Source: Neptunicoccus cionae | Lineage (GTDB): Bacteria; Pseudomonadota; Alphaproteobacteria; Rhodobacterales; Rhodobacteraceae | Assembly (NCBI RefSeq): GCF_002860325.1 | Contig: NZ_PKOJ01000008.1 | Coordinates: 124,001-188,000, forward strand | Length of the DNA: 64,000 nt | Direction: 5' to 3' | Part shown: positions 31,029-49,772 of the stretch, one piece after another | How positions within the stretch are numbered: the stretch's first letter is position 1 | Layout of the letters: each line of letters starts with the position of its first letter | Notes under the pieces: generated by a model | What the model saw: only the letters and a program-made list of their open reading frames with translations | What the model was told of the DNA's origin: nothing | The model's database searches: none | Translations under genes and position numbers: made by a program

Positions 31029-32330
31029 ATGTCACTCGGAATACACAACGCAAAGCTGAACCAGCTTGCCATGTCTGAAAAGGCACAACCGCTGCTGGAC
31101 GCTGTGATCGCGCATATCCGCGATAACGTCGACCCGATCACCGAGGAATTTTACAAACTGGGCGAAGGCCGCGCCGACCGTTGGTCTTACGCGCCGGGCC
31201 AGTTGGAGCTGTTGGAAACCGCCAAGGTAAAGGCGCGGGAAAACGGGCTGTGGAACTTCTTCCTGCCCAATGCGGAAACCGGCGAGGGCCTGTCCAACCT
31301 CGATTATGCCTATATCGCAGCGGAACTGGGCAAAAACCCTCTGGCCTCTGAAACGCTGAACTGTTCAGCGCCCGATACGGGCAACATGGAAGTGCTGGAA
31401 CGGATCGGCACGCCTGCGCAAAAGGAAAAATGGCTCAAGCCCCTGCTGGCCGGTGAAATCCGTTCCGCCTTTGCCATGACCGAACCGGATGTAGCCTCTT
31501 CAGATGCCAAGAACATCTCCACTTCTGCGGTTCTGGAAAACGGCGAATGGGTCATCAACGGCGAGAAATTCTACATCTCCGGCGCAGGCGATCCACGATG
31601 CAAGATCATGATTACAATGGTGAAAACATCTCCCGATGCGGAACCGTTCAAACAGCAAAGCCAGATCCTCGTGCCTATCGACACACCGGGTGTAGAGATC
31701 CTCGGCCCGATGCACGTCTTCGGCCATGATGATGCGCCTCACGGTCACATGCACATCCGCTTTACCAATGTCCGGGTACCGGAAGAAAACATGCTGCTGG
31801 GTGAAGGTCGCGGCTTTGAAATCAGCCAGCTTCGTCTTGGGCCAGGGCGGATCCACCACTGCATGCGCTCTATCGGTCAGGGCGAACGCGCTCTGGAAAT
31901 GATGCTGGAACGCTCGCTCAGCCGTGAAGCCTTTGGCAAGAAGATCATCGATCTGGGCAAGAATATGGAAACCATTTCCCGCGCACGGATCGAACTGGAA
32001 GCCATGCGCCTGATGGTGCTGAAAGCCGCCCGCGCGATGGACGTGCTTGGCAACAAAGAAGCCCGCATCTGGGTGTCTGCGGTCAAGGCGATGGTACCAG
32101 AGAAAGTCTGCGACATCATTGACCAGTCCATGCAGGTCCACGGTGCCGCCGGTCTGTCCCAGTGGTTCCCGCTGTCTGACATGTACGCCGGTCAGCGCAC
32201 CCTGCGCTTTGCTGATGGTCCGGACGAGGTACACCACCACGTCGTGGCCCGCGCCGAGGTCCAGACTTTCAAAGCGTCCAACGACCGCGCCCCGATCATT
32301 GCCGCCGGTCGCAAGTTTGAAGGACCATAA
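31029..32330 (+). CDS. Acyl-CoA dehydrogenase of the ACAD10/ACAD11 (LvaC-like) type
   Basis: The protein has 433 residues from an ATG after GGAAAGGAC. It carries segments characteristic of the ACAD10/ACAD11 dehydrogenase domain: 'ENGLWNFFLP' (71-80), 'NCSAPDTGNMEVL' (111-123), 'MTEPDVASSDA' (150-160), 'GAGDPRCKI', 'FGHDDAPHGH' and 'GPGRIHHCMRSIG'. The C-terminal catalytic region reads 'ADGPDEVH' (about 395-402), with Asp in the neighbourhood where ordinary enzymes have Glu. In mammals and in bacterial levulinate catabolism, such enzymes act on 4-phosphoacyl-CoA produced by an associated kinase. A matching kinase gene is at 48744-49772, though not in this operon. A plain branched-chain acyl-CoA dehydrogenase is the alternative. 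Confidence 0.85.
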   Translation: MSLGIHNAKLNQLAMSEKAQPLLDAVIAHIRDNVDPITEEFYKLGEGRADRWSYAPGQLELLETAKVKARENGLWNFFLPNAETGEGLSNLDYAYIAAELGKNPLASETLNCSAPDTGNMEVLERIGTPAQKEKWLKPLLAGEIRSAFAMTEPDVASSDAKNISTSAVLENGEWVINGEKFYISGAGDPRCKIMITMVKTSPDAEPFKQQSQILVPIDTPGVEILGPMHVFGHDDAPHGHMHIRFTNVRVPEENMLLGEGRGFEISQLRLGPGRIHHCMRSIGQGERALEMMLERSLSREAFGKKIIDLGKNMETISRARIELEAMRLMVLKAARAMDVLGNKEARIWVSAVKAMVPEKVCDIIDQSMQVHGAAGLSQWFPLSDMYAGQRTLRFADGPDEVHHHVVARAEVQTFKASNDRAPIIAAGRKFEGP

Positions 32331-32332
32331 AC

Positions 32333-33106
32333 ATGACACAACTGTTTGATATGACAGGAAAGGTCGCGCTGCTCACCGGCGCGTCCAAAGGCATGGGGTT
32401 CGAGATGGCCAAAGCTATGGCGCTGCACGGCGCCAAGGTGGTCATTTCTGCCCGTACACAGGAAGATCTGGATAAGGCCGCTGCCGAAATCAACAAGGAA
32501 TGCGGCAAAAGCCGCGCCTTTGGCGTAGCCTGCAATGCGGGCCACAAGGACCAGCTCGAAGCGCTGGTGGAAAAAACCCACGAACTGGCCGGCACTATCG
32601 ACATCCTGTTCGGCAACGCAGGGGTAAACCCCTACTACGGCCCGACATCGGGCATTTCCGACAAAGCCTATGAAAAGACCATGCAGGTCAACGTCCAGTC
32701 CAACCTGTGGCTGGCGCAACTGGTAGCACCCGATATGGAAAAGAACGGCGGCGGATCGATGGTCTTCACATCATCCATCGGTGCGTTCAAGCCTTCGGTC
32801 ATGCTGGGCACTTACGCCATGTCAAAACTGGCAGTGATCGGCCTTGTCCGTAACCTAGCTGCCGAATTCGGCGCCAAGGGCATCCGCGTCAATGCGCTGT
32901 GTCCCGGTGTAGTGCGCACGGAATTCGCCCGAGAGCTGTGGGACAATCCAAAGGCTGCGGAACGGGCCACCAAAGAAATTCCGCTCGGGCGTTTTGGCGA
33001 ACCGGAAGATTTTGCAGGCATCGCGGTCTTCCTTGGCTCCAAAGCCAGCCAGTATATCACCGGACAGGCCTTCACCGTCGATGGCGGTTCGGTCATGTGG
33101 ACATAA
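32333..33106 (+). CDS. Short-chain dehydrogenase/reductase (DHRS4-like)
   Basis: The protein has 257 residues starting two bases after the preceding stop. 'LLTGASKGMGFEMA' (14-27) is the nucleotide-binding motif; 'NAGVNP' follows, and the catalytic set is Ser147/148, Tyr161 and Lys165 ('YAMSK'). C-terminal 'PLGRFGEPEDFAGIAVFLGSKASQYITGQ' is classical SDR. It oxidises or reduces a hydroxy/keto group with NAD(P). In this operon it may reduce a 4-keto acyl-CoA to 4-hydroxy, as LvaD does, or oxidise an alcohol; this is inference from context. Confidence 0.85.
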   Translation: MTQLFDMTGKVALLTGASKGMGFEMAKAMALHGAKVVISARTQEDLDKAAAEINKECGKSRAFGVACNAGHKDQLEALVEKTHELAGTIDILFGNAGVNPYYGPTSGISDKAYEKTMQVNVQSNLWLAQLVAPDMEKNGGGSMVFTSSIGAFKPSVMLGTYAMSKLAVIGLVRNLAAEFGAKGIRVNALCPGVVRTEFARELWDNPKAAERATKEIPLGRFGEPEDFAGIAVFLGSKASQYITGQAFTVDGGSVMWT

Positions 33107-33115
33107 GGGAAGACT

Positions 33116-33886
33116 ATGGAACTCAAAGATAAAATCATCGTCGTCACAGGTGCCGCCGGCGGTATCGGCAAGGCGCTTGCCATTCGCTTCGCCGCAGAAG
33201 GTGCAAAATGCGTAGTCTGCGCCGATCTGGACGGCGACGGCGCAGAAGCCACCGCCAAGGAAATCGGCGGTGTGTCGTTTCAGGTCAATGTTGGCAATGA
33301 AGAGGAAATCAAAGCCCTCATTGACACGACCGAGGCCGAGCAAGGCCCCATTGACCTGTTCTGCTCCAACGCCGGCATCCTTGTGGGCGGCGGCGTCGAA
33401 GTGCCCAATGACGACTGGCAGAAGATCTGGGATATCAACGTGATGTCTCATGTCTGGGCCGCGCGCCACCTTGTCCCGCTGATGAGCAAACGGGGCGGCG
33501 GCTATCTGCTGAACACCGCCTCAGCCGCCGGACTTCTCAACCAAGTCGGTGCCGCCCCTTACGGTGTGACCAAACACGCCGCAGTTGGGCTCGCAGAATG
33601 GTTGGCGCTGACTTACAATGATCAGGGCATCAAAGTGTCGGTTCTCTGCCCGCAGGCGGTCCGTTCCGCCATGACCAAAGGTCATGAGGACGGCGTTGCC
33701 TCGCTCAACGGGATGCTCGAACCCGAAGCCGTGGCCGAGGCCTGCGTGAAGACCATTAACGATGAAACCTTCCTCGTGCTGCCCCATCCCGAAGTGCTGG
33801 ATTACATGCGCAACAAAACCGACAATTACGACAAATGGATCGGCGGGATGCGCAAATTGAACCGCATCTACGGCGGTGCAATCTGA
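33116..33886 (+). CDS. Short-chain dehydrogenase/reductase
   Basis: The protein has 256 residues, 9 bp after the preceding SDR. Motifs: 'VVTGAAGGIGKALA' (9-22), an acidic residue after the second strand ('VVCADLDG') favouring NAD(H), 'NAGILVGGG', and catalytic Ser136, Tyr149 and Lys153. The tail differs from FabG proteins: 'TFLVLPHPEVLDYMRNKTDNYDKWIGGMRKLNRIYGG', a form common in SDRs of CoA and sterol-type catabolic operons. It is the last gene of the operon, followed by a hairpin with a T-rich end. Substrate not identified. Confidence 0.85.
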   Translation: MELKDKIIVVTGAAGGIGKALAIRFAAEGAKCVVCADLDGDGAEATAKEIGGVSFQVNVGNEEEIKALIDTTEAEQGPIDLFCSNAGILVGGGVEVPNDDWQKIWDINVMSHVWAARHLVPLMSKRGGGYLLNTASAAGLLNQVGAAPYGVTKHAAVGLAEWLALTYNDQGIKVSVLCPQAVRSAMTKGHEDGVASLNGMLEPEAVAEACVKTINDETFLVLPHPEVLDYMRNKTDNYDKWIGGMRKLNRIYGGAI

Positions 33887-33930
33887 ACGGCAAGCGGCTC
33901 TTTTTGGGGCAAATATCCCCGCCGGAGGCC

Positions 33931-33959
33931 ATGCGGGACAGGCAACTGTCCCGCATTTT
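33931..33959 (+). terminator. Intrinsic terminator after the ligase-to-SDR operon
   Basis: An 11-bp perfect stem (ATGCGGGACAG / CTGTCCCGCAT) with a GCAA tetraloop is followed by TTTC. It lies in the 85-bp gap between two convergent stops and mainly serves the plus strand. Confidence 0.75.
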
Positions 33960-33971
33960 CATATGAAGGGT

Positions 33972-34844
33972 CTATTCCGGCTTCTTCTTGATCTGCCGCA
34001 TCAGACCTTCCTGCGCGACACTGGCCACCAGTTTGCCATCATGGGTAAAGATGGTGCCACGGTTAAATCCGCGCGCCCCGCCCGTGAACGGGCTGTCCAT
34101 CGTATAAAGATGCCAGTCGGCAAAATTCACCGGCGCGTGAAACCACATGGCATGGTCCAGACTGGCGGTCATCACCTGCCCTGTAAACCACGTCTGGCCG
34201 TGGGGGCGCAGGCTGGAGCCGAGCAGGTTCATATCCGAGGCATAGGCCATCAGGCAGTGCTGCATCTGCGGATTTGCGTCCCGCGCACCCGGCATACGGA
34301 ACCACAGATGGTTGCGGTCCTCCACGACTTTGGGGGCAAACCAGTCCTGTGGTGCCACTTCGCGAATTTCGATGGGACGCGCCCGAAGAAATTCCTTGCG
34401 GTGCTTTTCGGGGACTTTGTCTTTGTTTTCCTCGCGCCATTTCGCACGGGATTCCAGTGTGTCCGGCTCTGGCACTTTTGGCATTTCATGCTGGTGATGC
34501 AGACCTTCCTCTTCCACATGGAAAGAGGCGGACATGTTCAGGATCTGCTTGCCATGCTGGATCGCAATCACCCGACGCGTGGTGAAACTGCCCCCGTCCC
34601 TTGCGCGGTCCACAGAGTAGATGACTGGAATAGACGGATCACCCGGACGGATGAAATAGGCATGAAGCGAGTGGCACAACCGCCCGTCTACAGTTTTATA
34701 AGCCGCCGCCAGCGCCTGTGCGATCACCTGCCCGCCGAAAATCCGCATGGTCGTCTCGCCGCCCGAACCGATGCCGCGAAACAGGTCCACTTCCAACTGC
34801 TCGATTTCCAGCAGGTTCAGCAACTCTGCCACAATGTCGGTCAT
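33972..34844 (-). CDS. tesB: Acyl-CoA thioesterase II (TesB family)
   Basis: The protein has 290 residues of a double hot-dog fold. N-terminal 'ELLNLLEIEQLEVDLFRG' and 'RIFGGQVIAQALAAAYKTV', central 'SLHAYFIRPGDPSIPVIY', and C-terminal 'ASLDHAMWFHAPVNFADWHLYTMDSP' plus 'GRGTIFTHDGKLVASVAQEGLMR'-like segments define TesB. The C-terminal half contains the Asp and Gln expected in the catalytic triad. It hydrolyses acyl-CoA to free acid and CoA. Its ATG overlaps the stop of acetoacetyl-CoA synthetase (34841-34844), making it the last gene of a three-gene coupled operon. Confidence 0.92.
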   Translation of the reverse strand: MTDIVAELLNLLEIEQLEVDLFRGIGSGGETTMRIFGGQVIAQALAAAYKTVDGRLCHSLHAYFIRPGDPSIPVIYSVDRARDGGSFTTRRVIAIQHGKQILNMSASFHVEEEGLHHQHEMPKVPEPDTLESRAKWREENKDKVPEKHRKEFLRARPIEIREVAPQDWFAPKVVEDRNHLWFRMPGARDANPQMQHCLMAYASDMNLLGSSLRPHGQTWFTGQVMTASLDHAMWFHAPVNFADWHLYTMDSPFTGGARGFNRGTIFTHDGKLVASVAQEGLMRQIKKKPE

Positions 34845-36811
34845 CCGGTCTCTCTTTCTGCCGCATAGGCAATAAATCGGTCAAAGCTCTCCGGATTGGC
34901 CATGCTGTCGCGATTCACCACAGTTTCCGGATTTCCGCCTAAAAGCAGCTTTTTGACAGGAACTTCCAGCTTTTTTCCCGAAATTGTACGCGGAACCTCT
35001 GCGATCTGAATGATTTCATTGGGTTGAAACCGCGCCGAGACTCCGTTTTTAATCGCTGTGTTGATCTTTGTCTTAATGCTGTCATCCAGCGTCAGACCGT
35101 CCCGCAGCACTACAAACAGCGGCATAAAGCTCTCGCGGCCCAGAAACTCCAGATCGACGACAAGGCTGTCCATCACCTCGTCCAGCCCTTCTACCGCCTG
35201 ATAGATCTCGGACGATCCCATGCGCAGGCCCTTGCGGTTTATGGTGGCATCAGAGCGTCCGTAAATCACCGACCCGCCTTGCGGCGTGATTTCAATCCAG
35301 TCACCGTGGCGCCAGACTCCGGGATAGGTATCAAAGTAACTCTCGTGCAGGCGGGATCCGTCCTCGTCGCCCCAGAAATACAGCGGCATGGAAGGCAGCG
35401 GTTCGGTGCAAACCAGCTCGCCCACCTCACCGATCACCTCGTTTCCGGCCCCGTCAAAGGCACGCACCGCATTGCCAAGGGCGCGGGCCTGCATCTCTCC
35501 GGCCCGCACCACATCCATCGGATTGCCACAGACAAATGCGCCCATCAGATCGGTGCCACCGGAAATCGGTGCAAGCCAGATGTCCTCTTTCGCTTCCCTG
35601 TAAATCCACGCGTAGGCGTCTTCGGACAAGGGCGAGCCGGTAGAACCGAGCGAGTGCAGGTTTGACAGGTCAAAATCCTTGGCAGGTGTGACACCTGCCT
35701 TGGCACAGGTTCCGAAATAGGCCGCCCCCGCACCGAAATAGTTCAGCTCTTCTTCGGCAACGAACTGCCACAAAACATTCAGATCGGGATAGTTCACCGC
35801 GCCGTCAAAAATGGACAGCGTCATCCCCTGTGCCAGTGAGAGCAGCTGCGAGTTCCACATGATCCAGCCAGAGGAAGTCAGCCAGCAGAACCGCTCTCCT
35901 GCTTTCAGATCCTGATGGAGCGATTGTTTGGCCCCTTCAACCAGCGCCCCGCCGTGACCGTGTACAATCGGTTTCGGATTGCCCGTAGTGCCGGAGGAAT
36001 AAACCACCCAAAGCGGATGATCGAAAGGCACCTGTTCCGGCGCAAAACCGGCTTTGCGGTCCAACAGATCGGCCCAGTTGCGGGCCCCGTTTGGCAGCTC
36101 CCCTGCGAACGGCAGCACGATGCGATGCTCCAGCGTTGGCAGGCTTTCCGTTACGGTCGCAAGGATGCCACGGCGGTCCACGGTTTTACCCGCATGAACA
36201 TATCCGTCCTGCGCAATCAACACTTTGGGCTTGATCTGGGCGAAGCGGTCCACGATGGCCACATCCCCCATATCCGGCGCGCACAGCGACCAGATCGCCC
36301 CGAGGCTTGCCGTCGCCAGAAATGCCACGACAGAGGCGGGACCATTGGGCAGAATGGCGACCACACGATCGCCCTTTTCAACGCCCATATCCTGCAGGTG
36401 CGCCGCCAGACTGGACACCTGCCCATGCAGTTCTGCCCAAGTCAGTTGCTCTGTACCAAAGGTTTCGGATCGGGCAGAAATCGCCAGCGCGTCGCCCCGC
36501 TGTGGAACATGGCGCAGGATCTGTTCCACAAAGTTCAGCCGTGCGCCTTCAAACCACTTCGCCCCCGGCATCACCCGTTTGTCCAGAACGCTGGTATAAT
36601 GGGCAGAGGACTGCAGATCGAAGAACTGCCAGATGGTTTCCCAGAAATCCTCCAGCTCTGTCACGCTCCATTCCCACAGCGCGGGGTAATCCGCAAATGT
36701 CAGCCCGCGGTTTTGCTCTAGCCAGCGTATGTATTCCGCCAGACGGGAGCTTTCCGCCCGCTCTTTTGACGGGGTCCACAGGATCGGGCGTTCTTTCACC
36801 GGGGTATTCAT
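34841..36811 (-). CDS. Acetoacetyl-CoA synthetase
   Basis: The protein has 656 residues, the full length of the family. 'LEDFWETIWQFFDL' and 'GAKWFEGARLNFVEQIL' are acetoacetyl-CoA-synthetase N-terminal landmarks. ANL motifs follow: '[22 protein letters not shown]', 'GTDLMGAFVCGNP', 'VIYGRSDATINRKGLRMGSSEIY', and the catalytic Lys in 'RTISGKKLEVPVKK'. It makes acetoacetyl-CoA from acetoacetate, ATP and CoA in ketone-body or polyhydroxybutyrate use. It is flanked by a serine hydrolase and TesB in overlapping frames, consistent with cleavage and activation of hydroxy/keto-acid units. Confidence 0.93.
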   Translation of the reverse strand: MNTPVKERPILWTPSKERAESSRLAEYIRWLEQNRGLTFADYPALWEWSVTELEDFWETIWQFFDLQSSAHYTSVLDKRVMPGAKWFEGARLNFVEQILRHVPQRGDALAISARSETFGTEQLTWAELHGQVSSLAAHLQDMGVEKGDRVVAILPNGPASVVAFLATASLGAIWSLCAPDMGDVAIVDRFAQIKPKVLIAQDGYVHAGKTVDRRGILATVTESLPTLEHRIVLPFAGELPNGARNWADLLDRKAGFAPEQVPFDHPLWVVYSSGTTGNPKPIVHGHGGALVEGAKQSLHQDLKAGERFCWLTSSGWIMWNSQLLSLAQGMTLSIFDGAVNYPDLNVLWQFVAEEELNYFGAGAAYFGTCAKAGVTPAKDFDLSNLHSLGSTGSPLSEDAYAWIYREAKEDIWLAPISGGTDLMGAFVCGNPMDVVRAGEMQARALGNAVRAFDGAGNEVIGEVGELVCTEPLPSMPLYFWGDEDGSRLHESYFDTYPGVWRHGDWIEITPQGGSVIYGRSDATINRKGLRMGSSEIYQAVEGLDEVMDSLVVDLEFLGRESFMPLFVVLRDGLTLDDSIKTKINTAIKNGVSARFQPNEIIQIAEVPRTISGKKLEVPVKKLLLGGNPETVVNRDSMANPESFDRFIAYAAERETG

Positions 36812-38049
36812 TGCATTAAGGCTCCATGCACCAAAGATTTGAGTTGCGGGCGGGCCGGATAGGAACTGCTCGGGGAGAGTTGGGTGAAAAACACCACCGA
36901 AAGATCCAGCACCGGATCAACCCAGAAAAAAGTAGAGGCCATACCGCCCCAACTGAAATCCCCCACACTTCCCGGTGCGCGGGCGCGGGCCGGATCAAGT
37001 ACGACAGCACCGCCCAGACCAAAGCCCATACCTTCCATCGGTTGTTCGGCAAAGCTGCTCGGTCCCATAGAGGCGATATCGCCCGGCAGATGATTTCGGG
37101 TCATGAAATCTACTGTTTTCGGGGACAGCAAACGGTTCCCGTTGCCTGATCCCTTGCAGCGGATCATCTCGCAGAATTTCATGTAATCGTCGATTGTCCC
37201 CACCAGACCGCCGCCGCCAGAATACGTCTCGGCCTTGCGATAGGCGCTTGTGTCGGCGTGGTCGATCAGGCGCAGTGGATTGCCGCCCTCCTTTGCTGCA
37301 TTGAGCGCCATCGCATCCCCCGCCAACGGTGTGTAGAGCGAAGCAAAGCGGGATTGGGTACCTTCCGGAACGCTGAATGCAGTTTCCGTCATACCAAGGG
37401 GCGCAAAAATCTTTTCGGCAAAAAACGCGCTAAGGCTCTGCCCCGAGACCACCTCAACTACACGCCCGAGCACGTCAATGGACACGGAATATTCCCATCT
37501 GCTGCCCGGCTGGAAGGCCAGCGGCAGTTCGGCGAGCTGATCCACAACTCCTTCAAGCGGGCCTTGATCGGCGCGGAAAATCAGCCCTTTCTCTTCCATC
37601 GCAGCGGGCAGGACGCCCGGATTGAACGGATAGCTGAAGCCGCTGGTATGGGTCAGCAGTTGGTGCAGCGTGGGCGTCTGGCACGGCGTCACCTGATCAA
37701 GGTTGGTCGCCCCGTCCACCAGCGCGGTACAATCCGAAAAGGCCGGAATGAAATCGGACAATGGCGCATCCAGATGAAACAGCCCCTGTTCGGCCAGCAT
37801 CATGATCGCCACGGATGTGACCGGTTTTGTCATGGAATAGATTCGCGCCAGCGTGTCCCGCTCAAACGGCAGGCCTGCCTCAATATCCCGCGCTCCGGCC
37901 GCGTTGAAATAAACCTCTTTGCCGCCCCGCGCGATCAGCAGGGAAGATCCGGCATATTTGCGCTCTGAAACGTAGCGGTCCATCCATGTGCCGATACGGC
38001 CCATCCGGTCCGGATCAAATCCTGCGGACTGAGGTGACGCGGTTTGCAT
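36808..38049 (-). CDS. Serine hydrolase, class C beta-lactamase-like fold
   Basis: The protein has 413 residues from an ATG six bases after GGAAGGA; upstream in-frame ATG/TTG codons sit too close to that site. The nucleophile is Ser72 in 'IYSMTKPVTS' (S-x-x-K, Lys75), with the conserved Tyr187 in 'RWEYSVSIDVLG'. There is no signal peptide, so it is cytoplasmic, not a true beta-lactamase. This family includes esterases, amide-oligomer hydrolases and 3-hydroxybutyrate-oligomer-type hydrolases. First gene of an operon with acetoacetyl-CoA synthetase (stop/start overlap), so an ester or oligomer of a hydroxy acid is a reasonable substrate guess. Confidence 0.85.
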   Translation of the reverse strand: MQTASPQSAGFDPDRMGRIGTWMDRYVSERKYAGSSLLIARGGKEVYFNAAGARDIEAGLPFERDTLARIYSMTKPVTSVAIMMLAEQGLFHLDAPLSDFIPAFSDCTALVDGATNLDQVTPCQTPTLHQLLTHTSGFSYPFNPGVLPAAMEEKGLIFRADQGPLEGVVDQLAELPLAFQPGSRWEYSVSIDVLGRVVEVVSGQSLSAFFAEKIFAPLGMTETAFSVPEGTQSRFASLYTPLAGDAMALNAAKEGGNPLRLIDHADTSAYRKAETYSGGGGLVGTIDDYMKFCEMIRCKGSGNGNRLLSPKTVDFMTRNHLPGDIASMGPSSFAEQPMEGMGFGLGGAVVLDPARARAPGSVGDFSWGGMASTFFWVDPVLDLSVVFFTQLSPSSSYPARPQLKSLVHGALMQ

Positions 38050-38066
38050 GGGCATTCCTTCCAACT

Positions 38067-39890: not shown

Positions 39891-40089
39891 GGTCGTCCTC
39901 TCCTCAGTTTGGGCCACTTTACAAATTCTGACGGGATTGTCCGATTTTTTTTAACATTATTGCGCGACGAAACGGGTGACGTTGCGACCGTTTTCCCGAG
40001 TTAATCCAATAGGTCAGCCTCTTTCTGCTACCTTGTCCGGAAATACCGTCTCTGACAGTATCAAAGCATAACCCGTGTGGAGGAACACA

Positions 40090-41467: not shown

Positions 41468-41468
41468 A

Positions 41469-42227: not shown

Positions 42228-43528
42228 TGCGCGCCTCCTTCTTTGGACGAGGTCATTACATTTGCGTTGCCCCATGTTTCACGCAGTTCCGCAGAGCTGC
42301 GTTTCGCGAGCCAGAACCCGATGACAGTTAAACCGATAATCACAATCCAAGGGATCGGACTGTGGGTCGAAAACTCGATACCGAACAGGCTCATGTCGTG
42401 CTCTCCGACCGCGGCATGTTTGAAGTGGAACATAAGCTCACAGAAACTTGCCAGCCCCAGAATGCCGATGGCCGCTGGGATCAGCGTCTTGATGTAAGGC
42501 ACAACCAGCGTGCCAAGCTTCCCGAGCTTGTAAGGAACCACATGCATCATAAGAACGCCTGCCAGTCCGCCGGGGAAATACATCACCGTCAGAACGAACA
42601 GGGCACCTACATAAAGCTGCCAGAGTTCGGTTTGCAGCGACAGAACCGATTGCAGCAGGGTAAATACGATGGCACCGATGATCGGACCAAAGAAGAACCC
42701 GACGCCGCCCAGAAAGGTGATCAACAGGATCGAACCGGAGGTGACGAGGTTGAGGTTCTCTTCCGTCAGGATTTCAAAGTTGATCGCGAAAAGACCACCT
42801 GCAACACCGGCAAAGAAGCCCGAGGCGCAGAAAGAATAGAACCGCACCCAACGGGCCGAATAGCCAAGGAACTGCGCCCGTTCCGGGTTGTCGCGCACCG
42901 CATTCGCCATCCGCCCCACAGGGGTTCTGGAAAACAGGTACATAAGCAACGCCGACAGGACGAGCCAACCGGCGGTCAGGTAGTAAACCTCGATCTTGGT
43001 CAGGAACTCGTAGCCGAAGACCGGCAGGCCATAGGTCCGGTCACCGCTTACCCCTTCCTCGCCGCCAAAGAAGGCGACAACGATAACAGAGCTGGCCGCG
43101 ATCAGTTCGCCAATACCCAAAGAGATCATGGCAAAAACAGTACCGGCGGTTCGGGTTGAAAACGATCCGATGATCGTCGCCATGCCCATGCCGAACAAGC
43201 CGCCAATAACCGGCAACAGTGGCAGGGGCAGCGGAATATTTTCATATTCCACCCAGTTCATCACGTGCATACACATGAAACCGCCCATACCCATGTATAC
43301 CGCATGGCCGAAGGACAGCATGCCCCCCTGCCCGAGCAGCATATTATAGGCCAGCGCAAAAACGATAGTGATCGCCATCTGGTTCATAATCGTCAGAGCA
43401 GAGTTCGACTGGAACACATAGGGCAGGACCAGCAGAATTGCCGTGCAGATGACCCAAGGGGCTACCGTACCCGTGCTTAACCCGCCGTAGGACCTTTTCT
43501 TTGCCATTATAGAGCTTGTATCTGTCAT
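42224..43528 (-). CDS. livM: Branched-chain-type ABC transporter permease LivM
   Basis: The protein has 434 residues with about 9-10 hydrophobic helices. 'ITIVFALAYNMLLGQGGMLSFGHAVYMGMGGF' near residues 50-80 and 'RTPVGRMANAVRDNPERAQFLGYSARWVRFYSFCASGFFAGVAGGLFA' mid-protein are LivM signatures. The C-terminus adds helices beyond the usual LivM core, with a charged tail. Its ATG overlaps the livH stop and its stop overlaps the livG ATG, so the four components are translationally coupled. The M8 codon downstream has no ribosome site. Confidence 0.93.
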   Translation of the reverse strand: MTDTSSIMAKKRSYGGLSTGTVAPWVICTAILLVLPYVFQSNSALTIMNQMAITIVFALAYNMLLGQGGMLSFGHAVYMGMGGFMCMHVMNWVEYENIPLPLPLLPVIGGLFGMGMATIIGSFSTRTAGTVFAMISLGIGELIAASSVIVVAFFGGEEGVSGDRTYGLPVFGYEFLTKIEVYYLTAGWLVLSALLMYLFSRTPVGRMANAVRDNPERAQFLGYSARWVRFYSFCASGFFAGVAGGLFAINFEILTEENLNLVTSGSILLITFLGGVGFFFGPIIGAIVFTLLQSVLSLQTELWQLYVGALFVLTVMYFPGGLAGVLMMHVVPYKLGKLGTLVVPYIKTLIPAAIGILGLASFCELMFHFKHAAVGEHDMSLFGIEFSTHSPIPWIVIIGLTVIGFWLAKRSSAELRETWGNANVMTSSKEGGAQ

Positions 43529-44481
43529 GCGTCACGCTTTCCGAACAGGCCATAGGGGCGGAATACCAAGATCACGACCATCAGCAGATAAGGCAGGATC
43601 GGACCGATTTGCGGCAGGGTCAGTGTCCAGATGTCCCGCAAGGCGTGTTCCGACATCTCTTCGGGCATTTCAAAGCCGACAGCCATCAGGATATCCGCCA
43701 TCGCAACGTTGTAAGAGGCGGCAAATGTGGTCATCCAGCCGATCAGCAGGGACGCGACGAGCGCTCCCCAGAGCGAGCCGAGACCGCCAATAACAATGGT
43801 CACAAACACGATAGAGCCGAGCAGGAAGGCCATCCCCGGGAATGTCCCGAGTTGCGGTCCAGCGATCACGCCGGCCAGACCGGCCAGTGCAGTCCCCACA
43901 CCGAATACCCCCATAAAGATAAACGGAACATTGTGGCCCAGAGCCTCAACCGTGCGCGGATAGCTCAGAGCGGCCTGAATAATCATACCAACCCGCGTTT
44001 TCGTCAGCACGTAGAGCAGACACAGGAAGATCAGCACGGAAATTGCGATCATAAAGACCTTATAGGCCTGAATTTCGTTTGTTCCGATGGAGAACAGCGC
44101 GAATTGCAGGACTTCGGGCGCATCATAGGGAACCTGGTTCTTACCCCAGAAGAACTGGACGATTTCCTCGATCAGCAGGGCGAGACCGAATGTAAAGATC
44201 AGTTCTGGCACATGGCCGTACTGGTGTACCTTACGCAGCCCGAACCTCTCGATCGCGGCTCCCGCGACACCGACGATGATCGGCGCAAGGATCAGCCCCG
44301 GCCAGAAGCCCATGTAGCGGCTGATTTGATAAGCGAAGTAAGCGCCCAGCATATAAAAACTGGCATGGGCGAAGTTCAGCACACCCATCATTGAAAAGAT
44401 CAACGTCAACCCGCTGGAAAGCATAAACAGAAGCAATCCATACACGAGACCGTCAATCAGGATAACGAGAACAAGTTCCAT
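43525..44481 (-). CDS. livH: Branched-chain-type ABC transporter permease LivH
   Basis: The protein has 318 residues with about eight hydrophobic helices. 'LLLFMLSSGLTLIFSMMGVLNFAHASFYMLGAYFAYQI' near the N-terminus is the LivH signature, with 'TKTRVGMIIQAALSYPRTVEALGHNV' as the coupling loop and 'LGSIVFVTIVIGGLGSLWGALVASLLIGW' later. It pairs with LivM as the inner-membrane channel. The 83-bp gap from the binding-protein gene contains a strong terminator hairpin, so livHMGF are probably expressed at a lower level by read-through. Confidence 0.93.
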   Translation of the reverse strand: MELVLVILIDGLVYGLLLFMLSSGLTLIFSMMGVLNFAHASFYMLGAYFAYQISRYMGFWPGLILAPIIVGVAGAAIERFGLRKVHQYGHVPELIFTFGLALLIEEIVQFFWGKNQVPYDAPEVLQFALFSIGTNEIQAYKVFMIAISVLIFLCLLYVLTKTRVGMIIQAALSYPRTVEALGHNVPFIFMGVFGVGTALAGLAGVIAGPQLGTFPGMAFLLGSIVFVTIVIGGLGSLWGALVASLLIGWMTTFAASYNVAMADILMAVGFEMPEEMSEHALRDIWTLTLPQIGPILPYLLMVVILVFRPYGLFGKRDA

Positions 44482-44516
44482 CGTGTCCCAACCCTAACGA
44501 TTTTTGAATTTTTGAC

Positions 44517-44550
44517 AAAAAAGGCCCGCTTCAGGAAACCGAAGCGGGCC
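44517..44550 (-). terminator. Intrinsic terminator / attenuator after the Liv-type binding protein gene
   Basis: On the minus strand a 10-bp perfect stem (GGCCCGCTTC / GAAGCGGGCC, 8-nt loop) is followed directly by TTTTTT (44522-44517). It lies just after the binding-protein stop and before livH, the usual place for setting high binding-protein dosage. Confidence 0.85.
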
Positions 44551-44564
44551 GCAAAGCACAGCCT

Positions 44565-45809
44565 TTACGGGCGCTTCATTTTGCAGGTCGTCGGGCTGTC
44601 CATGCCAGCCATCTCGACTTCGCTTACCAGTTTCATACCCCAGTCGGAGGCGTCCATGAAGAATTGGATACCTTCGCTGGTATGCTCTTGGATGTCGACG
44701 TTCTGAATGATCTGGTGGTCGTCAGGGCGCATGTAGAGTTTGCCACCCCAGATGCTGTCATGTTCCATCCCTTCCAGAGCCTGGGCCACTTTAACAACAT
44801 CAGTTGCGGTACCGGCTTCATTGATCGCTTTCGCAAGCATCTCAATCGTATTCGCGATACGGGGCTGGGTGATATCGTGGTCAGGGTATTTGGCTTCAAA
44901 CCCTTCCACATAAGCCGCAGTCCGGTCCGAAGCAGGCGGGTTCACAGCGCCCTCACTCACCAGATAGATGTGGCCTGTACCCTGTTCGCCAAAGGTGCGG
45001 GTAATGCCGTTGGAGGCCGCATAGTAAGTGTAGATCGGGCCGTCGAAACCGGCGTCGATGATTGCCTTACCCAGACCAACCATATCCGCACCCCAGTTGC
45101 CTGTAATCACGGCGTCGGCACCGGAAGAAACGATCTTGCGAGCATAAGGTGTGAAGTCTTTCACCTTACCAATCGGGTGCAATTCGTTTCCGACGATCTC
45201 TACGTCGGGACGTTTTGCTTCAAGGTTGCTGACAGCAGCCGCAGCCACGGATTTACCGAAGGAATAGTCTTGGCCGATCACGTAGACCTTCTTGAGGTTT
45301 TCGTCCTTTGCCATAACATCTGTAAGCGCATCCATCTTGATGTCTGCGTTGGCATCAAACCGGAAGTGCCAGAAGTTACAGGCATCGTTGGTCAGCGCCG
45401 GATCGACAGCGGCATAGTTCAGAAACAGCACACGGTCGTCGGGGTTGCGGCGGTTGTGCTTGTTCACAGCGTCAGTGATCGCGTGCGCAATCCCCGAAGA
45501 GTTCCCCTGCGCAATATAACGGATGCCCTGGTCGATCGCGACCTGCACCTGAATAAGAGATTCTTTCGGGCTCATCTTATTGTCGAAGCCGACAATCTCG
45601 AACATGTCTCCGCCCAGAACACCGCCCTGTTCATTTACCAGCTTTTCAGCAGCATATTGAAATTCGGCATACCCGTTGGTCCCTGTTGGCGAGAACGGTC
45701 CGGACAGCGGATCAACGAAAGCAATCTTTACGGTATCCGCAAAAGCTACAGACGCGCCCAAGCTGACGGCCAGTGCCGTGGCCATGCCTAATTTGGTTTT
45801 CTTGATCAT
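44565..45809 (-). CDS. ABC transporter substrate-binding protein (Liv/amide-type)
   Basis: The protein has 414 residues from an ATG after GGGAGG. A Sec signal ('MIKKTKLGMATALAVSLG..VAFA', cleavage about residue 24) precedes a type 1 periplasmic-binding fold: 'IAFVDPLSGPFSPTGTNGYAEF', 'RYIAQGNSSGIAHAI', 'VYVIGQDYSFGKSVAAAA' and 'VITGNWGADMVGLGKA'. A Cys pair ('NDACNF' and C-terminal 'TTCKMK') may form a disulfide. It delivers ligand to LivHMGF. The neighbourhood (ligase, IclR, acyl-CoA operons) points to a carboxylic acid rather than leucine, but that is inference. Confidence 0.88.
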   Translation of the reverse strand: MIKKTKLGMATALAVSLGASVAFADTVKIAFVDPLSGPFSPTGTNGYAEFQYAAEKLVNEQGGVLGGDMFEIVGFDNKMSPKESLIQVQVAIDQGIRYIAQGNSSGIAHAITDAVNKHNRRNPDDRVLFLNYAAVDPALTNDACNFWHFRFDANADIKMDALTDVMAKDENLKKVYVIGQDYSFGKSVAAAAVSNLEAKRPDVEIVGNELHPIGKVKDFTPYARKIVSSGADAVITGNWGADMVGLGKAIIDAGFDGPIYTYYAASNGITRTFGEQGTGHIYLVSEGAVNPPASDRTAAYVEGFEAKYPDHDITQPRIANTIEMLAKAINEAGTATDVVKVAQALEGMEHDSIWGGKLYMRPDDHQIIQNVDIQEHTSEGIQFFMDASDWGMKLVSEVEMAGMDSPTTCKMKRP

Positions 45810-45869
45810 TATTATTCCTCCCAGAATGAATATCGTCCTGCGCTCAAGGCGCGGCTGATATACCTGAAA

Positions 45870-45908
45870 GACTTACACACTCTGGTGATAAGTCAAGTAT
45901 TTCACCAG
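45870..45908. promoter_or_regulatory. Interlocking inverted repeats in the binding-protein / ligase divergent region
   Basis: GACTTA-N13-TAAGTC (45870-45894) and CTGGTGA-N13-TCACCAG (45882-45908) overlap: each has an arm inside the spacer of the other, and both spacers are 13 bp. This lies in a 228-bp divergent promoter region, so it is a candidate operator pair, perhaps for the IclR encoded at 47941-48738. The remaining sequence shows a TTGGGTC direct repeat near 45918-45936. Confidence 0.45.
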
Positions 45909-46037
45909 CTCGTAACGTTGGGTCACATTGGGTCTTTCGCCGAACTGCAACGTCATTACATTTAATACTTTTTCGACGGACGTGTTTCTGTTTCACTCAC
46001 TCGAGCGTGTGGGAGCGCGGCATCTGGGAGGAATGCA

Positions 46038-47537
46038 ATGGATCGGTTACATCAGGTTCTGGAGGGGAAACCCGCCAGTGCAAAAGCGCTTGTGGATTTT
46101 GACGGCACTGCGTTTTCGTGTGGCGAATTGCAGATGGAATCCGCAGCGCTGGCACAAATTTTGCAGAACCACGGGGTGCGCGGTGGAGACCGAGTTGTAC
46201 TGGTTGCCGAGAACTCAGTTCTCTACGCGGCTATGGTGTTTGCGGCCAGCCGGTTGAATGCGTGGCTGGTGTTAGTAAACGCCAGACAATCCGCCGAAGA
46301 AATTGCCGCGATAGCATCCCATGCCTCCCCGCGTTGTGTGGTTTTCACCCACAGTGCCTCTGAACCGGCCCGCGCCCATGCAAAGCGGATGGAGGCGGAT
46401 AAGATCGGTGCGCTCGCCTGCGGTCCGGTTTATGCCACAAAGGTTAAGGAAACCGAAACGGAGCCGGTCAGTGCGGGAAGCGATCAGGTTGCGGTTCTCT
46501 TGTACACTACCGGCACGACCAGTGCGCCCAAAGGCGTTATGCTAACCCATAACAACCTGCTGTTCAGCGCAGGGAACTCTGCCCGCTTTCACGGTTTGAC
46601 ACCGGACGACTGCGTGGTTGGTGTTCTCCCCGGAACTCATATTTACGCGCTGGCCTCGGTTTTTCTGCCCGCCATGATCGCCGGGGCCACGCTCCATCTG
46701 TTCGCGCGATTTGACACGCTGGCTGTACTTGCGCTGCTGCGGGACGGGGCCACCCGTTTCCCTGCGGTGCCCCAGATGATGGCGGCGATCATGCAGCATT
46801 TGCACGAAGCCGGTGAAGAACTGAATGCCCCTGCCCTGATCAGCATGATGACCGGCGGCGCCCCCCTTGATCCCGGATTGAAAGCGCGGGCGGAAAAGGT
46901 CTTTGGCATACCGCTTAACAACGGTTACGGCATGACAGAGACCTCGCCTTCCATCGCGGCCACTCACAACGACAGCCCCCGAGACGATGTGGGTGTCGGA
47001 AAGCCTTACGACTGGATCGATGTGCGGCTGTGGGACAAAAACGAAGATGGCATCGGTGAAATACAAGTGCGGGGCGAAAACGTGATGAAAGGCTACTATC
47101 GCGATCCCGAGCGCACGGCCGAAGCGATGACCGACGACGGTTTTTTCCGCACCGGCGATCTGGGCCGGTTTGACGAAGGCGGCGGGCTGCATATCGTGGG
47201 CCGTCTGAAGGAACTGATCATCCGCTCCGGCTTCAACGTCCACCCCCCGGAAATAGAGGCGATGCTGTCCAGACATCCCGATGTGTTTCAGGCCGCTGTT
47301 GTAGGACGCATGGTACAGGGCGACGAGGAAATTCTTGCCTTCGTGAAAGGCACGGACAGGCTGGACGAAGAAACCTTGAAACGCTGGCTGCGGGAACGGC
47401 TGGTGGCCTACAAGGTTCCGAGCCATATCTTCATTGTTGATGATTATCCTGCCGCCGCGACCGGAAAGATATTCAAACACAAATTGTTAACGCATTTCGC
47501 AGACAGGATTGCAGAGAAGGACGCTGCAAAAGCGTAG
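46038..47537 (+). CDS. Acyl-CoA synthetase (AMP-forming, class I adenylate-forming)
   Basis: The protein has 499 residues from an ATG after GGGAGGAATGC. Motifs: 'VLLYTTGTTSAPKGVMLTHNN', 'NNGYGMTETSPSIAATHN', 'RTGDLGRFDEGGGLHIVGRLKELIIRSGFNVHPPEIEAML' and catalytic Lys in 'AAATGKIFKHKL'. It is shorter than FadD-type proteins, in the range of coumarate/carnitine- or ring-acid-CoA ligases. It is transcribed divergently from the binding protein and ends 2 bp from the convergent thioesterase. A link to the imported acid is likely; the identity of the acid is unknown. Confidence 0.88.
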   Translation: MDRLHQVLEGKPASAKALVDFDGTAFSCGELQMESAALAQILQNHGVRGGDRVVLVAENSVLYAAMVFAASRLNAWLVLVNARQSAEEIAAIASHASPRCVVFTHSASEPARAHAKRMEADKIGALACGPVYATKVKETETEPVSAGSDQVAVLLYTTGTTSAPKGVMLTHNNLLFSAGNSARFHGLTPDDCVVGVLPGTHIYALASVFLPAMIAGATLHLFARFDTLAVLALLRDGATRFPAVPQMMAAIMQHLHEAGEELNAPALISMMTGGAPLDPGLKARAEKVFGIPLNNGYGMTETSPSIAATHNDSPRDDVGVGKPYDWIDVRLWDKNEDGIGEIQVRGENVMKGYYRDPERTAEAMTDDGFFRTGDLGRFDEGGGLHIVGRLKELIIRSGFNVHPPEIEAMLSRHPDVFQAAVVGRMVQGDEEILAFVKGTDRLDEETLKRWLRERLVAYKVPSHIFIVDDYPAAATGKIFKHKLLTHFADRIAEKDAAKA

Positions 47538-47539
47538 CC

Positions 47540-47944
47540 CTATCGGCTGCGATAACGGAAGGTGCCTGTGGCCTTGGCGATCAGCTCTCCGGTTTCATCG
47601 CTGAGTTCTGCATCAGCAAAATAGGTTTTTCGTCCGCCCCCCGTGCGCCAGCCTTTGGCGATCAGCAGCTTGCCTTTCGGGCGCGACAGATATTGCACCG
47701 TCATCGACAGGGTCATCACCAGTTGTGGCGCATCGGGATCGCCAGTGTAGCTTCCGGCAAACCCCATAGCGGTATCGAGCAGACTGGCGTGTACCCCGCC
47801 ATGAGGCAGCCCGTAGCGATTGCCGTGCTTGGTTTCGAGCGGCATTTCTATCGTAGCTTCACCCTCGGCCCAAGCGGTTACACTATAACCGAGAAGCTTT
47901 TGATATTCATAAGGTTCTTCAAAAAGATCGGATCCGTCATTCAT
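47540..47944 (-). CDS. PaaI-family hot-dog thioesterase
   Basis: The protein has 134 residues, the usual size of a single hot-dog domain. 'GNRYGLPHGGVHASLLDTAMGFA' contains the HGG catalytic/CoA loop, followed by 'TLSMTVQYLSRPKGKLLIAKGWRTGGGRKTYFADAEL', the second sheet with a typical acidic residue. It hydrolyses acyl- or aryl-CoA, probably to clear dead-end intermediates. Its ATG overlaps the stop of the IclR gene (47941-47944), placing it last in a nine-gene operon. Confidence 0.88.
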   Translation of the reverse strand: MNDGSDLFEEPYEYQKLLGYSVTAWAEGEATIEMPLETKHGNRYGLPHGGVHASLLDTAMGFAGSYTGDPDAPQLVMTLSMTVQYLSRPKGKLLIAKGWRTGGGRKTYFADAELSDETGELIAKATGTFRYRSR

Positions 47945-48738
47945 CGCCGGTTCATCCCTAAAAGCTCTGCCGATTTGACTAGCATCGGCCCGTAGACCGT
48001 CTCCAGTTCATCGGGTTTGACATGAAAGGACGGTCCGCCGACATTCAATCCGAACACACGTCCGTCCAGCCCGCGCACGGGCACAGCCACGCCATTCACA
48101 TCAGGACGCCAGTCACCGAAACCGGAACAGAAACCGACTTTTTCGTACTGGTTTTTCGCCTCCGCGTAGCTCGCTTTTTGCTCCGCTACTAGATCGGGCA
48201 GAAACTCGGCACCGCAGGCAAAAGCAGCTTCGAGTCCGGCTTCGTCCAGCCCGACCAGGATAGCCCGCCCGATGGCCGAAAAGAACAGTGGCAGCCGTGA
48301 TCCGATCGAAAGCCGCAAGGACACATCTTCGCAAGACCGCTCCACCGCGATGTAGATCGCGTCGGTCAAATGACGTTCCGCCAGCGCACAGGTGATATAG
48401 CTGTTCGGCCCGTCCCGCAGGCGCAGCATCTCTTCCTTCGCACGCTCGGCAATTTCCATGCCGGACAAAACGCCAAAGCCAAGCGACAGCACCCCTGCTC
48501 CTAACCGGTAGCCCCCCGATTTTTCATCCAGCGACAGGTAATCAAGACGGCACAGGGTATAGATCAGGCGGGACACGGTGGGTTTTGGCAACCCCGTGCG
48601 TTTGGCGATGTCTGTATTGGTCAGGACCGATTCATTTGGCCGGAAACAGCGCAACACATCCAGCCCGCGGGCCAGCGCGGTGATGAAATTGCGGTCCTTA
48701 TCCTCGTCGAGGTCCGGAATGACATGAATCTCGGCCAT
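47941..48738 (-). CDS. IclR-family transcriptional regulator
   Basis: The protein has 265 residues. The N-terminal winged helix has 'LARGLDVLRCFRPNESVLTNTDIAKRTGLPKPTVSRLIYTLCRLDYL' (about 22-68), followed by an effector domain with 'GFCSGFGDWRPDVNGVAVPVRG' and 'LNVGGPSF'. IclR proteins control aromatic- and CoA-related catabolism, binding pathway acids. It is embedded between the kinase gene and the thioesterase in the operon, so it likely regulates its own transcript and possibly the divergent Liv and ligase promoters. Ligand unknown. Confidence 0.93.
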   Translation of the reverse strand: MAEIHVIPDLDEDKDRNFITALARGLDVLRCFRPNESVLTNTDIAKRTGLPKPTVSRLIYTLCRLDYLSLDEKSGGYRLGAGVLSLGFGVLSGMEIAERAKEEMLRLRDGPNSYITCALAERHLTDAIYIAVERSCEDVSLRLSIGSRLPLFFSAIGRAILVGLDEAGLEAAFACGAEFLPDLVAEQKASYAEAKNQYEKVGFCSGFGDWRPDVNGVAVPVRGLDGRVFGLNVGGPSFHVKPDELETVYGPMLVKSAELLGMNRR

Positions 48739-48743
48739 TTACT

Positions 48744-49772
48744 TTATCCCTGCTCAAGCGCCTTCAGACCGGCGTTGGCAAAGACCGGCACATATTGCCC
48801 CATCTGTTTGCCGCGCTCCGGATTAGACGCATTCCCGTCCAGCGCACGTTTCAGAACTCCCTGAATAATCGCCGCCATCCGGAAGAAATTGAATGCCAGA
48901 TAAAAGCCGAAATTGTCAATCGGACCGATGCCGCGACGTTCGCAGTAACGGGCGATAAATTCGGCGTCTGTCGGCAAACCAAGAGCGGCGCGGTCCACGC
49001 CGGCAAGACCGCGGCCTTCCGTTGTCGCAGGCATCTGCCATTGCATGATCACCGCCGCCAGATCCGCATAGGGATGGCCGATGGTGGAAAGTTCCCAGTC
49101 AAGCACGGCCAGACACAGCGGCCCGTCTTTCTCGAACATCATATTGTCAATCCGGTAATCCCCGTGAACCAATGTGCGCTGGCCGTCATCCGCCGGTGTC
49201 TGCTCAACCAGAAGCTCCATCAGACGATCCATATCGGCAACCGTTTCGGTTTCCGATGCACGGTATTGTTTGGACCAGCGGCCAATCTGGCGTTCGTAAT
49301 AATTACCGGGCGGGCCGAAATCCGACAGGCCCACGGCATCAATATCCACATCGTGCAGGGCGGCCAGCACGCGGTTCATATCGTCAATCACGCCGCTGCG
49401 CATGGCGTTGTCCTGATCCGGCATGGTGGGCAGCGTATGATTGCGCCCGTCCACATGGTCCATCACGTAGAACATAGACCCGATTACGCTGTCATCCTCG
49501 CAAAGGTGGTGCATTCTGGCCACCGGTACATCCGTATTTGCCAGCGCGGACTGCACACGGAATTCACGGTCCACCGCATGGGCCGATTTCAGCAACATTC
49601 CGGGTGGCTTGCGCCGCAGCACGAAATTGCGGGTGGGCGTTCTCAGCAGGAAAGTCGGATTGGACTGGCCGACCTGAAATTTTTCAACCTCCAGCGGGCC
49701 TTCAAACCCGTCGATCTTATCCGAAAGATAGTCCGCGACGACGGCGGCATCCAGCGTTTGTGTATCACTCAT
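48744..49772 (-). CDS. ACAD10/ACAD11-type kinase (aminoglycoside-phosphotransferase fold, LvaA-like)
   Basis: The protein has 342 residues. The nucleotide-binding lobe carries 'GQSNPTFLLRTPTRNFVLRRKPPG' (35-58, with Lys55 the likely ATP-lysine) and 'LLKSAHAVDREFRV'. Catalytic loop 'VHGDYRIDNMMF' (202-213; base Asp205), and metal-binding 'VLDWELSTIGHPYADLA' (223-239; Asp225). The segments 'KPPG', 'SAHAVDREFRV', 'CEDDSVIGSMFYVMDHVDGR' and 'QYRASET' mark the ACAD10/ACAD11 kinase group, not antibiotic resistance. That group phosphorylates the 4-hydroxyl of hydroxyacyl-CoA. A dehydrogenase of the partner type is encoded at 31029-32330. A histidine phosphatase is directly upstream in the same operon. 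Confidence 0.88.
   Translation of the reverse strand: MSDTQTLDAAVVADYLSDKIDGFEGPLEVEKFQVGQSNPTFLLRTPTRNFVLRRKPPGMLLKSAHAVDREFRVQSALANTDVPVARMHHLCEDDSVIGSMFYVMDHVDGRNHTLPTMPDQDNAMRSGVIDDMNRVLAALHDVDIDAVGLSDFGPPGNYYERQIGRWSKQYRASETETVADMDRLMELLVEQTPADDGQRTLVHGDYRIDNMMFEKDGPLCLAVLDWELSTIGHPYADLAAVIMQWQMPATTEGRGLAGVDRAALGLPTDAEFIARYCERRGIGPIDNFGFYLAFNFFRMAAIIQGVLKRALDGNASNPERGKQMGQYVPVFANAGLKALEQG

Follow-up and report, generated by a model that had tools for sequence, protein, structure and literature searches.

The closest described systems and the split pair of the window

A phosphorylation route for the breakdown of 4-hydroxy acids has been described in Pseudomonas putida and in mammals (available text of PMC6692424, PMC11342911 and PMC12440821). 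Animals fuse the kinase and the acyl-CoA dehydrogenase (ACAD) of this route into the single enzymes ACAD10 and ACAD11, which serve 4-hydroxy fatty acid breakdown. According to the accessible part of PMC11342911, B. pseudomallei orthologs can substitute for either half of ACAD10 in vitro. Here we analyze a 64,000-nucleotide stretch of DNA from Neptunicoccus cionae (G000:C16:124001-188000; host genome of 4.29 Mb), the whole of which is referred to as the window. It contains a catabolic island at ~27.2-56.1 kb in which a stand-alone ACAD11-type dehydrogenase (31029-32330, plus strand, in operon 1) and a stand-alone kinase (48744-49772, minus strand, in operon 2) are encoded separately; as the preliminary description had stated, the two halves sit in different operons. 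They lie on opposite strands, 16.4 kb apart. In G004, a relative from the same genus group, both genes have coordinates identical to those in G041, the genome of the N. sediminis locus L113; G004 and G041 are presumably one genome, and the host a close relative of N. sediminis (Rhodobacterales). Judged from sequence, the island likely encodes a pathway for 4-hydroxyacyl-CoA in which the kinase and the dehydrogenase act in trans, the pair having been merged from two modules. The chemistry is already known; what is new is the arrangement, the re-pairing and a serine-type phosphatase homolog beside the kinase.

The window enzymes share with ACAD10 and ACAD11 both protein families as well as the catalytic and phosphate-binding residues reported in the available text of PMC12440821 and PMC11342911, but they are two genes in two operons, and a histidine-phosphatase homolog stands beside the kinase in place of a HAD domain. 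The LvaA/LvaB/LvaC system of P. putida, compared by its description in the accessible parts of PMC6692424 and PMC11342911, likewise has a separate kinase and ACAD with a short-chain dehydrogenase/reductase (SDR) and a ligase nearby. In contrast, the window has no LvaB-sized gene in its kinase operon, its kinase and ACAD are not in one operon, and their neighbors are two further ACADs, an MFE-2-like SDR, an ABC transporter and an acetoacetate-CoA ligase. The cluster of P. citronellolis LA18T, as outlined in part in PMC6692424, resembles the window in that lvaB is missing and a histidine phosphatase gene lies beside the lvaA homolog, but its kinase, phosphatase, ACAD and SDR are contiguous and are accompanied by an acetate-type symporter. 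Adjacent pairs in other Rhodobacterales (G015, G141, G142 and G145) have kinases 61-65% identical to the window kinase, with a serine-type histidine-phosphatase homolog encoded between the two genes of the pair in G141 and G145; unlike in the window, their dehydrogenases (52-56% identical to the window's) adjoin the kinase. No recognizable lvaABCDE operon was found in 34 Pseudomonadaceae regions (of 35 dehydrogenase hits in 39 genomes), and within the limited library searched for Sulfitobacter or Rhodobacteraceae and 4-hydroxy acids, no title or abstract described the island.

The dehydrogenase reading frame contains every landmark from which its ACAD11-type assignment was first proposed: NCSAPDTGNMEVL at residue 111, MTEPDVASSD at 150, GRIHHCMR at 273 and ADGPDEVH at 395. 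Its matches among solved structures are ACAD11 (8v3u, 2.5e-118), followed by 2wbi and 4hr3 (near 1e-111), and other ACADs score no better than 2.7e-35; the gap in E-value from 8e-111 to 2.7e-35 sets an ACAD11-type subgroup apart from ordinary ACADs. The protein is 48% identical to the dehydrogenase domain of ACAD11, and its residues R269, H277, R280 and D396 correspond to R626, H634 and R637 of the phosphate site and to the catalytic D753, respectively. Substitutions in ACAD10/11 proved R626, H634, R637 and the catalytic aspartate to be important (PMC12440821, available text). These matches and residues uphold the assignment. As an in-genome control, 33 distinct ACADs of the host genome were aligned (the proteins of the 30 loci given for 33 dehydrogenase-search hits, together with the two ACADs of the kinase operon); all four residues occur in only 4 of them, namely the window protein, a paralog on contig C1, a paralog on C12 and a 31% identical relative on C13, so the motif is specific within the genome. 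Among aligned dehydrogenases, the four residues are present in 111 of 112 rows (the window protein entered twice), including Pseudomonadaceae proteins with no kinase in the fetched neighborhood, and the motif therefore argues for the reaction and not for a neighbor. The idea that it proves linkage was dropped, since Pseudomonas dehydrogenases without a nearby kinase retain it. In 19 Pseudomonadaceae regions (L194-L209 and L211-L213) an ACAD11-type dehydrogenase has no kinase nearby, and the full phosphate-binding motif is present in those checked. The sole row lacking the R637 equivalent belongs to an adjacent dehydrogenase-kinase pair (L101:7307-9673) with a strongly altered motif (RLAYGRLRHGMH).

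The kinase reading frame lies on the minus strand, a detail missing from the preliminary description, and it too carries all of the landmarks proposed for it (K55, D205 in HGD, D225 in LDWE, SAHAVDREFRV at 63 and QYRASET at 169). It has an APH fold (E 1.5e-47), its best solved relatives are 3dxp (1.7e-103) and full-length ACAD11 (8v3v, E 4e-71), and it is 41% identical to the ACAD11 kinase domain. Equivalents of D205, N210 and D225 are present in all 38 aligned rows (the window kinase entered twice). When compared with R176 and R86 of ACAD11, the arginine of an ERQ motif fits R176 within one position, and an arginine precedes the αC glutamate, but the chain numbering does not reproduce R86. 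In a tree built with a careful search, the window kinase groups with ACAD11 and 3dxp, apart from 9o56. The ACAD11 match, the catalytic residues and the placement with ACAD11 rather than with resistance APH enzymes all favor an ACAD10/11-type kinase. The APH fold would also suit a resistance kinase or another small-molecule kinase unrelated to acyl-CoA, but the probability of this is negligible, as the best aminoglycoside kinase model reaches only 31 bits against a cut-off of 205 and the gene is set in a β-oxidation operon; together with the tree position, the model scores ruled out a resistance enzyme.

Linkage, co-occurrence and origin of the pair

Linkage was followed in 49 genomes, drawn from loci that encode close relatives of the dehydrogenase (the best 80 of 577); as these genomes were chosen for the dehydrogenase, its presence is by construction and only retention of the kinase is informative. 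A kinase (E<=1e-20) occurs somewhere in all 49 genomes, and it lies within 20 kb of the dehydrogenase on the same contig in 33 of them (30 of the 41 with a contig of at least 60 kb). Twenty-three of these linked kinases are orthologs of the window kinase (at least 65% identical) located 1.8-19.4 kb away, and the remaining 10 are a different kinase (42-49%), mostly outside the Roseobacter group. In compact islands, where the two genes are ~1.8-2.6 kb apart, the dehydrogenase and an SDR stay close to the kinase and a nitronate-monooxygenase-family gene, mostly together with thioesterase II, and other genes are missing. A fused kinase-dehydrogenase reading frame suspected in L109 is actually two adjacent genes in different frames.

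Co-occurrence was scored in 195 Rhodobacterales genomes that are at least 90% complete, using thresholds of E<=1e-60 for the kinase and E<=1e-110 for the dehydrogenase. Both genes are found in 114 genomes, only the kinase in 11, only the dehydrogenase in 1 and neither in 69 (Fisher p 1e-39, uncorrected for kinship). The kinase of a 4-hydroxy-acid route is thus common in this order (125/195), partly on plasmids and with other neighbors, presumably serving other substrates. A window-type dehydrogenase (at least 75% identical) occurs in 20 of the 195 genomes, each of which has a kinase at least 66% identical to that of the window, within 30 kb on the same contig in 18; at the thresholds used, 12 of the 20 hold exactly one kinase and one dehydrogenase. 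On Sulfitobacter plasmids, a window-type dehydrogenase (81-85%) occurs in 13 records, every one of which has the kinase as well (70-78%, with one copy truncated at the record end); the annotated island of plasmid pSpoCB-1 is L193. Six further Sulfitobacter records, whose dehydrogenase match is below 60%, and a Haematobacter plasmid encoding a dehydrogenase of 79% identity are outside this count. Named Sulfitobacter strains and a defined gene set are available for finding the substrate. As the kinase and dehydrogenase often lie near each other in related marine bacteria, in some cases on plasmids, the pair is probably a working pathway. The suggestion that the two halves act together is thereby strengthened, by the active-site residues, linkage, co-occurrence, sole-pair genomes and plasmid co-carriage, whereas the arrangement is not specific to the window, as it recurs in marine Rhodobacterales islands.

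Trees and neighborhoods together point to a two-module origin of the pair. One supported kinase clade unites the window kinase, its Roseobacter orthologs and the kinase of G015, which is adjacent to a 56% identical dehydrogenase, and a second kinase clade (100/100) contains the kinases near window-type dehydrogenases in Alloalcanivorax mobilis, Paracoccus alkanivorans, Haematobacter, Albimonas and two metagenome-assembled genomes. In a dehydrogenase tree built with a quick search, the window-type clade stands apart from ACAD11, the G015 type and the Pseudomonas type. The window dehydrogenase clade is therefore found elsewhere beside another kinase clade, and window-like kinases are found elsewhere beside other dehydrogenases or none. 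Both kinase kinds are present in A. mobilis (G083: L179, L235), each in its own cluster, and Pseudooceanicola batsensis (G079) has a 67% kinase in an operon-2 setting and a 44% kinase (outside the tree) 2.2 kb from a window-type dehydrogenase. In genomes without a window-type dehydrogenase, 36 of 41 kinases at least 65% identical to that of the window have no dehydrogenase closer than 3 kb. The kinase and dehydrogenase thus seem to come not from one ancestral pair but from two modules, which the Roseobacter island would have joined. The kinase would stem from a module that also comprised the histidine-phosphatase homolog, SDR3, the thiolase and two ACADs, and the dehydrogenase from one with the ligase, 3-hydroxyacyl-CoA dehydrogenase, crotonase and SDRs, which elsewhere has a kinase of its own.

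Several points weigh against a merged and cooperating pair. The enzyme activities are predictions; the dehydrogenase tree carries long-branch warnings, and of ACAD10, ACAD11, LvaA and LvaC the trees contain ACAD11; the co-occurrence statistic ignores kinship, and the sets of 49 and 195 genomes overlap. The dehydrogenase search of the larger set scored the 8 best candidates per genome with a threshold of E<=1e-110, and 'exactly one' applies within these limits. In 16 of the 49 genomes the dehydrogenase has no kinase within 20 kb, although five of these involve contigs shorter than 50 kb and two have a kinase 46-49 kb away. The dehydrogenase could be independent of the window kinase, either as an ordinary ACAD or by using phosphoacyl-CoA made by the kinases on C1 and C13, its neighborhood being coincidental. 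In agreement with this, G028, G033, Marinobacter zhanjiangensis and Halopseudomonas have window-type dehydrogenases with no kinase close by, the latter two and others on long contigs; 28 of the 34 Pseudomonadaceae regions have an ACAD11-type dehydrogenase and no kinase in the fetched neighborhood; and the host genome has two further kinases and two or three further ACAD11-type dehydrogenases, so cross-pairing is possible. We nevertheless judge independence to be quite improbable, as the other in-genome ACADs examined, bar three paralogs, lack the phosphate-binding residues, 12 Rhodobacterales genomes have, at the thresholds used, just the one window-type kinase and the one window-type dehydrogenase, and compact islands keep the kinase near the dehydrogenase though other genes are missing.

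Gene content, predicted pathway and substrate

The genes of the island are listed below; their spacing suggests that operons 1 and 2 are each a single transcript.

Operon 1 (plus strand, gaps of 1-20 bp)
27235..28926, +, acyl-CoA ligase, first gene of the dehydrogenase operon; second-ranked NCBIfam match steroid-24-oyl-CoA synthetase, 356 bits against a cut-off of 750
28932..30230, +, 3-hydroxyacyl-CoA dehydrogenase
30232..31008, +, enoyl-CoA hydratase (crotonase)
31029..32330, +, ACAD10/11-LvaC-type acyl-CoA dehydrogenase, 433 aa, predicted 4-phosphoacyl-CoA phospho-eliminase (R269, H277, R280, D396)
32333..33106, +, SDR1, candidate 4-oxoacyl-CoA reductase or stereochemical corrector
33116..33886, +, SDR2, last gene of the dehydrogenase operon, retained by most compact islands

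Between the operons
33972..34844, -, acyl-CoA thioesterase II, adjoining the kinase in most compact islands
34841..36811, -, acetoacetate-CoA ligase, exceeding the NCBIfam cut-off
36808..38064, -, β-lactamase-fold serine esterase
38262..39917, -, acyl-CoA ligase, PRK07008-like, below cut-off
40766..45809, -, branched-chain amino acid (BCAA)-type ABC transporter, five genes (two ATPases, two permeases, binding protein)
46038..47537, +, acyl-CoA ligase

Operon 2 (minus strand, gaps of -58 to 88 bp)
47540..47944, -, hotdog thioesterase, 134 aa, last gene of the kinase operon
47941..48738, -, IclR-family regulator within the kinase operon
48744..49772, -, ACAD10/11-type APH-fold kinase, 342 aa, predicted 4-hydroxyacyl-CoA kinase (D205, N210, D225)
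49781..50428, -, histidine-phosphatase homolog immediately upstream of the kinase, 8-bp gap (R8, H9, R54, E75; Ser151 for the second catalytic His)
50434..51444, -, nitronate-monooxygenase-family flavoprotein
51533..52729, -, 3-ketoacyl-CoA thiolase
52742..53725, -, SDR3; nearest solved relatives MFE-2/17β-HSD4-type (3R)-hydroxyacyl-CoA dehydrogenases
53668..54795, -, acyl-CoA dehydrogenase subunit b (ACADb); top NCBIfam match pimeloyl-CoA dehydrogenase small subunit, below cut-off
54802..56145, -, acyl-CoA dehydrogenase subunit a (ACADa); top NCBIfam match pimeloyl-CoA dehydrogenase large subunit, below cut-off; nearest solved relatives 6wy8/6wy9 and 4x28

In the proposed pathway, the BCAA-type transporter would import a bulky, branched or long acyl substrate and a ligase would convert it to its acyl-CoA. 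The kinase would then phosphorylate the 4-hydroxyl group, and the dehydrogenase, acting in trans, would eliminate the phosphate, using its FAD in an internal redox step, to give a 2-enoyl-CoA that the crotonase, 3-hydroxyacyl-CoA dehydrogenases and thiolase of both operons would shorten via β-oxidation. Several kinase/dehydrogenase pairs, among them pairs of Pseudomonadaceae, have an SDR1-type protein (40-49%) beside them, as would be expected of a 4-oxoacyl-CoA reductase resembling LvaD.

The solved structures nearest to ACADa (6wy8/6wy9 and 4x28) are of enzymes that act on steroids, and the relatives of ACADa, SDR3 and the first ligase weakly point to bulky, branched or long acids. The preliminary description had offered lactone-derived γ-hydroxy acids as an example of the substrate class; given the steroid- and branched-acid-like genes around the kinase, levulinate and short γ-lactones are now weaker guesses. 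The island could still be the levulinate (lva) pathway in another arrangement, with levulinate, γ-valerolactone or a similar short 4-oxo or 4-hydroxy acid as substrate, as it has the same enzyme set (kinase, ACAD, SDR and ligase) and as the P. citronellolis lva cluster also has a histidine phosphatase and no lvaB (PMC6692424, in part). We think this unlikely, since the ACADs of the kinase operon and its MFE-2/17β-HSD4-like SDR are not named for lva in the available text of PMC6692424. Among the matches shown, the island CoA ligases other than the acetoacetate enzyme reach no specific short-chain NCBIfam cut-off, which leaves chain length unconstrained.

Three further observations concern the gene content. 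The ligase at 38262-39917 comes near the 3-(methylthio)propionyl-CoA ligase model (762 of 822 bits), a family with a role in the breakdown of dimethylsulfoniopropionate. A three-subunit molybdenum hydroxylase of the xanthine-dehydrogenase type (window:23218-26964) lies immediately upstream of the dehydrogenase operon and is also present in G003 and N. sediminis (L113). A VOC-family protein of 123 aa (L193:22870-23241 in one instance) follows SDR2 in many islands (34/101 loci examined), and none was seen in the window.

The histidine-phosphatase homolog and other loci of the host genome

The absence of an LvaB-like small protein, reported in the preliminary description, is borne out by size and place, although the LvaB sequence itself was not used as a query: no gap within the kinase operon exceeds 88 bp, and its only small gene encodes the 134-aa hotdog thioesterase. 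The gene immediately upstream of the kinase, which that description did not mention, encodes the histidine-phosphatase homolog. A phosphatase in LvaB's place is already in print for P. citronellolis LA18T, whose levulinate cluster has one beside the lvaA homolog and lacks lvaB (available text of PMC6692424). The window homolog keeps the histidine of the RHG motif (H9) as well as R8, R54 and E75, and has Ser151 in place of the second catalytic histidine. This change occurs in all 32 aligned homologs of the gene, whereas the second histidine is retained in 16 of 16 sequences of the island-end paralog HisP2 and in three unrelated histidine phosphatases. HisP2 itself (window:57262-57942, at the far end of the island) keeps both histidines and is present in many relatives. 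A profile search of 299 genomes of the phylum found the homolog at 65 places in 61 genomes, with serine in all 65, although the profile and cut-off may exclude homologs that keep the histidine. Thirty-one of the 65 hits lie within 2.5 kb of a kinase, a count for which 30 of the 65 loci offered only ~1.5 kb of flank; 13 are beside kinases of the window/ACAD11 group and 18 beside an L102-like lineage that groups with 9o56, outside that group. As serine is found in all hits, whether or not a kinase is near, it is a mark of the subfamily, and the notion that it is specific to kinase-linked copies was dropped.

Among 40 kinase-side loci fetched, the homolog is present in all 26 with a kinase at least 67% identical to that of the window, which together with the window, L095 and L193 makes 29 loci with a readable flank. 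In the other 14 of the 40 it is present in three (L234, L235 and L242), and three more (L239-L241) have an unrelated histidine phosphatase some kb away. It recurs near kinases in Alloalcanivorax and Marinobacter, and also beside the distant kinase of L102. Nine compact islands lack it and have the following gene immediately before the kinase instead (in a tenth, L165, the sequence ends at this point), and the view that the homolog is obligatory was abandoned on this ground. Its single-sequence structural model had a mean predicted local distance difference test (pLDDT) score of 38.8 and was useless for a fold search.

Loss of a catalytic histidine need not abolish activity in the histidine phosphatase superfamily, and some members without catalytic residues became binding proteins (PMC10728186, available text). 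The degenerate HAD domain of ACAD10 restrains the ACAD10 kinase (PMC11342911, in part). The window homolog may accordingly be a weak phosphatase, a regulator or neither. As a tentative and rather doubtful extension, bacterial 4-hydroxyacyl-CoA kinases might commonly be governed by a His-to-Ser histidine-phosphatase partner in LvaB's place, in parallel to the HAD domain of ACAD10, so that phosphatase folds would have been enlisted more than once, each time independently, for the control or binding of a phosphoacyl-CoA kinase; combined with the re-pairing of kinase and dehydrogenase from two modules, this would amount to a mobile pathway for a marine 4-hydroxy acid. The published remark on a phosphatase in LvaB's place in any case becomes a testable family with a conserved His-to-Ser change.

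The additional kinases and dehydrogenases of the host genome are found at three places. A second split pair (L043, L044) consists of an ACAD11-type dehydrogenase (C1:455488-456693, 50%) and a kinase (C1:467584-468507, 42%) ~11 kb apart, the latter adjoining a CoA ligase. At C12:160442-161509 (L047), an ACAD11-like dehydrogenase with a variant HHAMR motif has a crotonase, an IclR regulator and a TRAP transporter gene in its vicinity, where no kinase was found. A third cluster, which may be a steroid or terpenoid cluster, lies at C13:262000-299000 (L045, L046). Its 31% dehydrogenase has a variant motif (RLSPARLTHCMR) and is accompanied by a kinase (40%) and another APH-type kinase, by additional ACADs, and by genes for a CoA-transferase III and a nitronate-monooxygenase-family protein.

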